This document shows positions 23,187 through 60,602 of a stretch of DNA of 64,000 bases, piece after piece; position 1 is the first letter of the stretch, and every line of letters begins with the position of its first letter. The translations under genes were made by a program, and so were the position numbers. Source of the stretch: Kribbibacterium absianum (lineage in GTDB: Bacteria > Actinomycetota > Coriobacteriia > Coriobacteriales > Atopobiaceae); NCBI RefSeq assembly GCF_030067705.1, contig NZ_JASJEX010000005.1:1-64000 (forward strand). Reading direction: 5' to 3'. The notes under the pieces were generated by a model, which saw only the letters and a program-made list of their open reading frames with translations, did not search any database and was not told where the DNA came from.

Positions 23187-23274
23187 ATGCGTATCAGAAG
23201 CCGTTTGATGCGTTCCCGCGCATAGCGTGGACGCTTCGGTCAAAGCGATCTGTCCACGCTGTCGCCGAGCGGAG

Positions 23275-23373
23275 CGTGGACAAACGGCTCTCTCCGAAGC
23301 GTCCAGGCGTGGACAAACGGCTCTCTCCGAAGCGTCCAGGCGTGGACAAACGGCTCTCTCCGAAGCGTCCAGG
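23275..23373. repeat. 33-bp tandem repeat, three identical copies
   Basis: Three perfect copies at 23275-23307, 23308-23340 and 23341-23373. Each unit holds GGAC near the start and GTCC near the end, so a unit can fold on itself. An inverted relative, GTGGACGCTTCGG, precedes the array at 23227-23239 and can pair with CCGAAGCGTCC of a unit. The array ends eight bases before the stop of the leftward phosphatase gene, so it occupies that gene's 3' end. Confidence 0.9.
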
Positions 23374-25408: not shown

Positions 25409-25441
25409 TGTGCAAACAGGGACAGTCCCCGTTTGCACATC
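25407..25441. repeat. Palindrome at PFL-gene stop codon
   Basis: A 35-base near-perfect inverted repeat: GATGTGCAAAC on the left, GTTTGCACATC on the right, and a GGGACAGTCCCC centre. It starts within the stop codon of the PFL gene. With the next palindrome it forms a double hairpin between two convergent genes and probably ends transcription. The GGGAC/GTCCC centre recalls other REP families. Confidence 0.85.
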
Positions 25442-25452
25442 AGTCTCGAAAC

Positions 25453-25481
25453 GTGCATTTGGGGACTGTCCCCAAATGCAC
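25453..25481. repeat. Second palindrome in the PFL/murB intergenic region
   Basis: A 29-base inverted repeat, GTGCATTTGGGGAC against GTCCCCAAATGCAC. It has the same GGGAC-x-GTCCC centre as its neighbour but different arms, and ends six bases before the stop codon of the convergent murB fusion. It is a distinct type from the 29-bp GGGAC/GTCCC family elsewhere, since it has no conserved 11-base core. Confidence 0.85.
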
Positions 25482-27344: not shown

Positions 27345-27490
27345 CGAGCGTCCCTCCTCATGAGCGGGCGCCCCGGCTGGGCGCCCCCAAATGAGGGCAT
27401 TCTACCCGCCGGCGCAAAGAGATGGCCGTCGCGCGGACCGGCTGCAACGGCATTGCACAGGACGGGCCTTCCTTGCTACCGTAAGGCCAT

Positions 27491-27620
27491 CGGTTTCAGG
27501 GCGGGGTGAAAGTCCCCACTGGCGGTGACGAGCCACGGAACGGCTCGAAGCCCGCGACCCGCGAGCACGCGGTTGACCCGGTGGGATTCCGGGGCCAACG
27601 GTCACAGTCCGGACGGAAGA
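27491..27620 (+). ncRNA. FMN riboswitch (RFN element)
   Basis: Recognised by its conserved blocks in order: TTTCAGGGCGGGGTGAAAGT at 27494, CCCCACTGGCGGT, AGCCCGCGACC, GACCCGGTGGGATTCCGG and finally CAGTCCGGACGG. It lies 14 bases upstream of the ribU start. FMN binding would shut down the transporter operon. No separate T-rich terminator stem is seen before ribU, so the control is more likely on translation, by hiding the GGAGG site. Confidence 0.95.
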
Positions 27621-27633
27621 AACGGAGGCCCCT

Positions 27634-54764: not shown

Positions 54765-59404
<4,640 letters not shown>

Positions 59405-59429
59405 GAGCCCCCCCATCACGAAATTGAAA

Positions 59430-60377
59430 TTACTCTTTATATGAACACTTGCTCATATATTCCTCGTGACTCCACTCTAGCACGGAAACCTCCGAGTCTG
59501 GGCCTTCCCAGCACGCCCTCGTCATGCCCGCAAGGCCGGAATGAACTCGCGGAGCCGCGCGCCGAGGCTGCACCGCCCGAGAACTCGGGGGCGCAGATGC
59601 CGGCGCGACCGCCGCGGCGCCTGCCGATTTCACAACGCGACCCACCACGCTCTTGGAGACTCCGGTCGCTAGCTCGATCTGCCGAAAGGAAAGACCCGCC
59701 TCGTGGAGCACCACCAGCGCGGCGTCCCTCTCCGACCGGCCACATCCCCGCACAAGTCCAGGGTCGAGCGGAGCCACCGCAGCCCGGGCGCGCTCGAGCA
59801 CCGAAGCAGCATCCGCACCCCGGAGACTGCCCTCCAGGGAGAGGCACCGAGCAGGGGCCACGGGCTCCTGGTGAAGCTCCCGGAAACGCTCCTCCGACTC
59901 GATAAGCGCCCATACGGAGCTCTGGTCACACAGACCAGGGCCGCGCAAGTACTCATCAAAACTGTTCCAGCGATAGCTGCATCCCTCGCAGAGTCCGGCC
60001 CGCATCGCGTTCTGATGCACGTAGCGCACGGTCGCAAGCAGCTGGGCCTCGTCCATGACCGCGACGCGACGGAATCGGTCTTGGAACAGGTGCCCCTTCC
60101 GTCCGTGCCGCTTGTTGAACTCCACCGCGTACCGGCCCAAAAGCCACTTCATGAAGAGAGATATCGGCGCGCGCTCCCCCTGAAGGACGAGGTGCACGTG
60201 GTTCTCGACCAGCGTCCAAACGACAAGAGCGACAGGAAGGCGCCCGAGAGCCTTCCCGAGCAGCCGCACGAAGAGGGCGCGATCGCGGTCGTCCTCAAAG
60301 ATGAGCTGGCCGCCCACCCCGCGCGCCATCACGTGGTACGTGCGGAGCGGCGATGTCTCGGTTGTTCCTCGACCCAT
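59430..60377 (-). CDS. REP-associated tyrosine transposase (RAYT)
   Basis: 315 residues. RAYTs are HUH-fold single-strand DNA endonucleases related to IS200/IS605 transposases that move or propagate REP sequences. The HUH motif is [12 protein letters not shown] (His60, His62). The basic [19 protein letters not shown] follows, then [12 protein letters not shown] with the catalytic Tyr119; 'Y-x-H-x-N-x-x-R-A-G-L' is diagnostic. Residues ~205-255 add a helix-turn-helix ([22 protein letters not shown]), seen in one RAYT group. The ATG at 60377 follows GGGAGGG. All catalytic residues are intact and there are no frameshifts. Two 29-bp repeats stand 82 and 114 bases upstream. Its last ~10 codons run into the copA operator. 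Confidence 0.93.
59439..59458 (-). promoter_or_regulatory. ArsR/SmtB-like operator of copA inside the RAYT 3' end
   Basis: ATATGA and TCATAT frame an eight-base centre (ACACTTGC), giving a 20-base near-palindrome in an AT-rich stretch. TGAACA-like half sites of this type are bound by ArsR/SmtB-family metal sensors. It lies 35 bases upstream of the copA start and within the last codons of the RAYT gene. No ArsR or CsoR gene is in the window, so the regulator is elsewhere if this is correct. Confidence 0.5.
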
Positions 60378-60458
60378 GGCGCCCTCCCGGTGTCCCTTGG
60401 TTTCCAGGAGGATACTACAAGTGTTCGGTTTAGTACAAGCGTTCTCTTCAAGAAAGTG

Positions 60459-60519
60459 GGGACATCCGTGTCCGGCACCGATGTCCCGCTGGGACGAATG
60501 TGTCCGGCACCGATGTCCC
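60459..60519. repeat. 29-bp repeats upstream of the RAYT gene (two copies)
   Basis: Copies at 60459-60487 and 60491-60519, both with core GTGTCCGGCAC, separated by three bases. Same orientation, and nearly identical ends (CGATGTCCC). Confidence 0.92.
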
Positions 60520-60533
60520 GCTTTGAAAAAGAA

Positions 60534-60564
60534 GGACGGGTTCCTCCGAAGAAGGGACCCGTCC
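60534..60564. terminator. Hairpin between HtrA and RAYT genes
   Basis: GGACGGGTTCC pairs with GGGACCCGTCC through one G-T wobble. A run of five A precedes it on the plus strand, which makes a T run on minus. It lies 43 bases past the HtrA stop, so it probably ends that transcript. Confidence 0.55.
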
Positions 60565-60573
60565 TGGACATGC

Positions 60574-60602
60574 GGGACATGCGGCTACGGCACCAGCGTC
60601 CC
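60574..60602. repeat. 29-bp repeat at the HtrA stop codon
   Basis: Core GCGGCTACGGCAC-type (reverse of the GTAG variant). It ends four bases before the complementary stop codon at 60607. Confidence 0.9.

Follow-up and report, generated by a model that had tools for sequence, protein, structure and literature searches.

The window, i.e. the whole stretch of DNA analysed here, covers the 64 kb at the start of a 158-kb contig in the 2.18 Mb genome of a gut-type actinobacterium. At positions 59430–60377 of its minus strand there is an open reading frame of 315 amino acids for a Y1 HUH transposase of single-stranded DNA, which resembles REP-associated tyrosine transposases (RAYTs) and probably falls into subclass 2.1/TIRYT. 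Three copies of a 29-nt repeat, hereafter family A, are located upstream of this gene on the plus strand (60459–60487, 60491–60519 and 60574–60602). Such repeats beside the gene had been noted in the first-pass annotation, and they are indeed there, all of them upstream. Downstream of the gene no copy, even decayed, was found: the best score of the position weight matrix within 59201–60460 was −5.2.

The surroundings contain further copies. One of them (57750–57778) lies inside the frame of a heavy-metal P-type ATPase (57140–59419, minus strand) and leaves it unbroken. Two others (57033–57102) occupy the 5′ end of a long minus-strand frame at 54765–57104, which we take to be ligA-like judging by its sequence; their position suggests that the true start of this gene is downstream. 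Farther away, at positions 27488–27628 of the plus strand, the window contains an FMN riboswitch scored at 100.7 bits vs a gathering score of 66.2.

Predicted product of the transposase gene

Pfam profile search assigned residues 14–123 of the predicted protein to the Y1_Tnp family (PF01797, 33.2 bits vs a cut-off of 23), and the His-x-His, catalytic Tyr and Y-x-H-x-N signatures listed in the first-pass annotation correspond to H60-V-H62 and Y119-V-H-Q-N123. The AlphaFold2 model, built from 68 sequences with a mean pLDDT of 81.5, agrees with Pfam in delineating the HUH/Y1 catalytic domain (residues 13–126, positions 60000–60341 of the minus strand), which carries H60, H62, Y119 and N123. It also contains a distinct helical domain at residues 190–257 (positions 59607–59810, minus strand; block pLDDT 76–95) holding a helix-turn-helix (HTH), so that the C-terminal HTH expected from the letters is present in the model. 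Profile matches to HTH in the window protein stay below threshold; they are found in some of the 68 aligned proteins, e.g. HTH_23 in 10, and are mostly weak. Approximately 57 residues beyond this domain look disordered (pLDDT mostly below 60), and judging by the model they may originate from read-through.

The closest fold is that of 4er8, the E. coli RAYT with its REP hairpin (Z 17.1 over 160 residues, 2.7 Å), and the second-ranked one belongs to the IS608 transposase (Z 10.5). Sequence search against solved structures returned for the window transposase only chance matches, and its score with the NCBIfam RAYT equivalog NF047646 was 51.5 bits, i.e. below the cut-off of 80; four paralogues from the same genome gave 47.5, 58.8, 70 and 30.1 bits with the same profile. 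Instead of the class 2 signature Y---NP the window protein reads Y119...N123-A124, and in the alignment made by eye F occupies the place of W in the segment by which the E. coli enzyme reads the GTAG guide.

Within the 68 aligned proteins the window transposase deviates at four residues conserved in at least 90% of them (C55→T, M57→V, P124→A and S138→N), and since these are nearly invariant the enzyme may be decaying. Taken to its end, this would mean that the gene is a dead relic, and that family A was made in the past and now only decays. The altered residues, the missing downstream copy and the 57 extra residues after the HTH are all in line with such a history, and so are the paralogues, one of which has H-T-D for H-x-H and another its HTH in another frame. 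The frame of the window gene is, however, open and H60, H62, Y119 and N123 are intact, so that we regard a relic as a possibility to be reckoned with, though a somewhat unlikely one, and assume that the transposase may still be active.

Six enzymes and six families of 29-nt dyads

Pfam search revealed five Y1 genes in the genome; a search using the window protein as query yielded a sixth (C1:553328–554050) but missed the most distant one. The genome thus encodes six such transposases, and it harbors six distinct families of dyads, A to F, with a repeat length of 29 nt in all of them. Family A (GGGAC...GTCCC) counts 118 matches, family B (GTGCA...TGCAC) was found in 67 places, and families C ((T)GGAC...GTCC(A)), D (CCTCC...GGAGG), E (GTGAC...GTCAC) and F (GAGAC...GTCTC) have 216, 36, 10 and 46 copies, respectively, one or two of those in family E being doubtful. 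Two other families are also represented in the window: four family C repeats form an array at 23229–23370 (their enzyme is encoded at C1:173884–174606), and a pair of family B repeats, GGGACAGTCCC palindromes, occupies positions 25410–25481 (enzyme at C4:31897–32634).

Enzymes and families were compared in a six-by-six matrix, for which copies were counted in 20 kb around each transposase gene. Within 1.2 kb of the gene its own family has three (A and E) or four (B, C, D and F) copies, and all 30 off-diagonal cells contain no foreign copy at this distance. It is chiefly this one-to-one pairing, not adjacency, that assigns family A to the window transposase, since three copies beside the gene are already predicted by the local density (about 13 per 10 kb) and by themselves prove no association. 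The five paralogues, unlike the window transposase, have copies of their own repeat on both sides of the gene. The sixth enzyme, that of family F, has H-T-D where H-x-H is expected and, judging by this sequence, may be inactive despite the 46 copies of its family. In the enzyme of family D (L040:9956–10726) the C-terminal HTH seems to be encoded in a different frame, and a frameshift or sequencing error is therefore likely.

All families share the same design, in which two feet of five fixed bases are separated by three free bases each from a mostly fixed core of thirteen (5-3-13-3-5 nt). In 109 distinct copies of family A the feet (positions 1–5 and 25–29) are nearly fixed, which is partly owing to the way the copies were collected. 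The departure from the GTAG-footed REP claimed in the first-pass annotation is real: family A has no GTAG/GTGG foot, and no conserved GTRG was found in 10 columns on either side of 95 copies. Arms of the 109 copies were compared with shuffled columns, and positions 6-24, 7-23, 8-22 and 9-21 formed 58, 38, 36 and 30 Watson-Crick pairs vs 54.3, 37.8, 40.1 and 31.7 after shuffling. Flanking bases (−8 to 0 vs 30 to 38) also showed no co-variation. As the arms vary without co-variation, a conserved long, fully paired hairpin is not supported for family A. No association of the arms was registered in family D either (1 mirror-identical copy of 21 vs 2.0 by shuffling). In family B 29 of 50 listed copies are mirror-matched vs 18.3 in shuffled ones; among the 31 distinct copies of this list the excess is weak (12 vs 7.9, P 0.065). 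Positions 9 and 21 of family B, occupied by R and Y, pair below chance (17 of the 50 listed copies vs 24.1 expected), and this under-pairing could mark one strand. Folding of single-stranded DNA, performed for family A with five strands of four copies, gave a good structure for both strands of one copy (z −3.2) and weak structures (z from −0.4 to −0.8) for the other three strands, each from a different copy; examples of families B, D and E fold strongly (z from −4.3 to −6.4).

These features can be also read in another way, namely that the repeats are double-stranded dyad sites, such as operators or nucleoid-type sites, and that the enzyme or its HTH recognizes the duplex. Arms devoid of co-variation in families A (109 distinct copies) and D (21 copies), as well as poor folding of three out of four family A copies, fit this suggestion. 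It is opposed by the mirror-matched arms of family B, which exceed the shuffled level among listed and, weakly, among distinct copies, by the strong folding of examples from families B, D and E, and by the catalytic domain, which is of the type acting on single-stranded DNA. We therefore consider purely duplex sites unlikely, even though this reading is compatible with a transposase mobilizing the repeats: the enzyme may need a short-stemmed hairpin or may read a duplex dyad, and both are compatible with the repeat design.

Crowding of family A around its gene and repeats in related genomes

The window contains 48 GGGAC-N19-GTCCC sites on both strands (11477–63349), which become dense from about 37 kb, and the contig remains crowded until about 95 kb. 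Contig-wide the two feet were found 100 times at spacing 19 vs a mean of 0.2 at spacings 17, 18, 20, 21 and 22, and the stricter pattern, giving 118 matches genome-wide, returned 0 for the reversed control. As many as 93 of the 118 are on the 158-kb contig, i.e. on 7% of the genome. The remaining 25 rows come from four larger contigs, three of them being the same place read on both strands, and the genome-wide pattern search found no match on the two smallest contigs. Outward from the transposase gene the number of copies per 10 kb changes as 13, 16, 13.5, 13, 5, 1.5, 4 and 0.55, with a plateau of about 13 reaching 30 kb. The median position of family A on the contig is 65.6 kb (bootstrap interval 59.1–76.8), and the gene is at 59.4–60.4 kb.

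Family A prefers intergenic DNA: 64 of 106 copies are there vs 23% for random placements. Only this fraction was used, and the 33 of 106 copies placed inside genes by our rough gene caller were set aside because it mis-strands at least two genes, those of the P-type ATPase and the ligA-like protein. The copies are also grouped, 90 of the 106 being within 30 nt of the next one, and neighbours are direct in 37 cases and inverted in 21. Three other families are concentrated near the genes of their own enzymes, elsewhere in the genome. With flanks excluded, 22 copies of family C vs 9.7 expected are within 50 kb of the gene, and enrichment was also registered for families E (4 of 6 copies) and F (9 of 42), although P values for enrichment are too small, i.e. 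optimistic, because the copies stand in arrays. Families B (among the matches listed) and D show no crowding beyond the flanks.

GC skew of this contig is near zero before about 80 kb and negative beyond, and the best match to a dif-like site sought on it (17/28) was not convincing. It is improbable that family A was amplified by another enzyme or by slippage or recombination, or is crowded for regional reasons such as nearness of the terminus, with the gene there by chance: the slippage-like grouping of copies, a replication landmark compatible with the skew and a roughly 3% chance for one gene to fall inside a plateau of about 60 of 2184 kb speak in favor of it, but the other five enzymes each own another family, which would leave family A alone without an enzyme and the window gene alone without a family, and families C, E and F each have their densest surroundings near their own gene, at different places.

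Relatives of the enzyme were sought in named genomes, with five of the enzymes aligned as the query; this gave 80 loci, nearly all from Coriobacteriia. Eight loci were too near contig ends, and in 35 of the 72 testable ones the gene had the same imperfect dyad on either side at a distance of up to 600 bp vs 5 of 363 shifted control positions; with four own genes, all positive, this makes 39 of 76. In a second set, composed of 67 genes from 27 genomes of one genus and 9 genes from two other genera, 47 of 76 were dyad-flanked; the two sets overlap in genomes, so that 35/72 and 47/76 are not additive. Orthologous enzymes of the second set share the same flanking repeat. The commonest lengths of flanking dyads are 29 nt (12 of 39) and 31 nt (9 of 39), and since the latter is also frequent the 29-nt length is not universal.

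The first-pass annotation proposed to compare genomes with and without the enzyme for the presence of its repeats, and for the pair with repeat GTGCAAAAG...TTTGCAC the expectation mostly held. Four genomes with the enzyme have 99, 147, 140 and 38 copies, and the median in 27 genomes of the same genus without detected enzyme is 3 (Mann-Whitney P 0.0013), but exceptions among these 27 reach 107, 73, 28, 26, 20 and 18 copies. The two highest numbers belong to genomes G121 and G126 and refer to a 27-nt repeat family, with no enzyme of that clade detected in either genome. Abundant copies without the enzyme are what the first-pass annotation had listed, for its 29-bp repeats, as speaking against its proposal, but loss of the enzyme could produce them too; the repeats in G121 and G126 are possibly orphan families. 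In two sister species most copies near the gene of this pair are common to both, and at one syntenic site near it a single repeat in one species corresponds to an inverted pair (+39 bp) in the other. Correlation between enzyme and repeat distances is weak (r 0.20, P 0.025, n=41; r 0.16, P 0.067, n=33 after dereplication). Family A itself, searched across 140 genomes, has 118 matches in its own genome, one in each of two others and none in 137, and no close orthologue of the window transposase was found among the matches listed.

We find it quite probable, therefore, that the window gene encodes a single-stranded DNA transposase belonging to the TnpA-REP (RAYT) enzymes, most likely to their HTH-bearing subclass 2.1, and that family A comprises its non-autonomous elements. 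The HUH domain would bind, nick and rejoin single-stranded DNA at a repeat exposing its GGGAC/GTCCC feet, and the HTH domain would probably add specificity for the family. New copies would be placed mostly near the gene (within about 30–40 kb) and mostly in intergenic DNA, multiplying as short arrays, so that the crowding may be caused by local re-insertion. The link between the enzyme and family A is supported by the six-by-six pairing, the density plateau and the flanking dyads in relatives. The first-pass annotation was thus correct in linking the gene with the 29-bp family, on grounds that were beyond its means to test; that the enzyme moves this family, as it also claimed, we infer. The one-sided location of the copies, their adjacency being expected from local density, the confinement of the pair to a single genome among those searched, changed conserved residues, the uncrowded families B and D, the 107 and 73 enzyme-less copies and the weak distance correlation count against this explanation.

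Relation to known systems

Nunvar 2010 (PMC2817692) defines RAYTs through the inverted REPs, headed by GT(A/G)G, on either side of the gene, and also reports for four proteobacteria that REPs accumulate near rayt, over distances not exceeding two hundred kilobases. Crowding of family A around its gene has, therefore, a precedent. According to Di Nocera 2013 (PMC3733652), TIRYTs are flanked by inverted repeats (TIRs) unlike GTAG REPs; some TIRs make up moderately abundant repeat families, standing alone, paired or grouped, and the majority of them contain the GGGGWSAS motif. Most TIRYTs were placed in subclass 2.1 of TnpA-Y1, which has the HTH domain and corresponds to RAYT group 1 of Bertels 2017, in Quentin 2018 (PMC6006769), where automatic and manual search gave no REP-like sequences near subclass 2.1 genes.

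Our data suggest that such repeats do exist in an enzyme class reported to be devoid of them. New here are the six enzyme–repeat pairs and the spread of such pairing across Coriobacteriia in this class; no report of such repeats in Coriobacteriia was found in the literature, coverage of subscription papers being limited. Candidate substrates are now available for the class, and the six pairs from a single 2.2-Mb genome are at the same time a ready orthogonality panel of six proteins vs six oligonucleotides. The profile of repeat density about a gene present once also offers a measure of how far such an enzyme reaches. One may go further and imagine, as a rather doubtful generalization, a HUH branch that swapped the GTAG guide and the paired hairpin for a dyad of fixed length read by an added HTH, perhaps as a duplex; its enzymes would be retargetable through the HTH, and six orthogonal pairs would coexist in one small genome, some of them showing how far the enzyme reaches by the way repeat density falls off from its gene.

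The resemblance to RAYT/TnpA-REP systems of E. coli, Pseudomonas and Stenotrophomonas, as described in Nunvar 2010 (PMC2817692) and Bertels and Rainey 2011 (PMC3116915), includes the common HUH-Y1 fold with 4er8 as the nearest one, one enzyme per repeat family with several pairs per genome, and palindromic repeats that are short, numerous, mainly intergenic and arranged as doublets and arrays. In contrast to these systems the repeats found here have no GT(A/G)G head, the six families are all fixed at 29 nt, arms of families A and D do not co-vary, the enzyme bears a C-terminal HTH domain and the host belongs to Coriobacteriia. The RAYT identity given in the first-pass annotation stands for the Y1 fold, but the score under the NCBIfam cut-off, the absence of a GTAG/GTGG foot and the absence of a downstream copy show that this is not a classic REPtron. 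IS200/IS605 TnpA proteins (IS608, ISDra2) share the HUH-Y1 catalytic fold (Z 8–10.5) and differ in that the enzyme studied has the Y-x-H-x-N motif and scores lower with their fold than with that of RAYT.

TIRYTs/TIRtrons, as presented in PMC3733652, are similar in having a Y1 enzyme and flanking inverted repeats unrelated to GTAG REPs, and their GGGGWSAS motif is recognizable in families B (GGGGACAG) and E (GGGGTCAG). Unlike them, six families with about 10 to 216 copies coexist here in one genome, the consensus of family A does not contain GGGGWSAS, and the window gene has no downstream copy. Two flanking inverted repeats, by which both RAYTs and TIRYTs are recognized, are thus not found at the window gene, which has upstream copies only. 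Subclass 2.1, as outlined in PMC6006769, has in common with the window transposase the long protein, the C-terminal HTH and F in place of W in the GTAG-guide region, and differs in that flanking dyads are common here. The assignment to subclass 2.1/TIRYT is probable because of the C-terminal HTH domain, and the window transposase can be best described as RAYT-like, probably a representative of subclass 2.1, and a full member of neither RAYTs nor TIRYTs.
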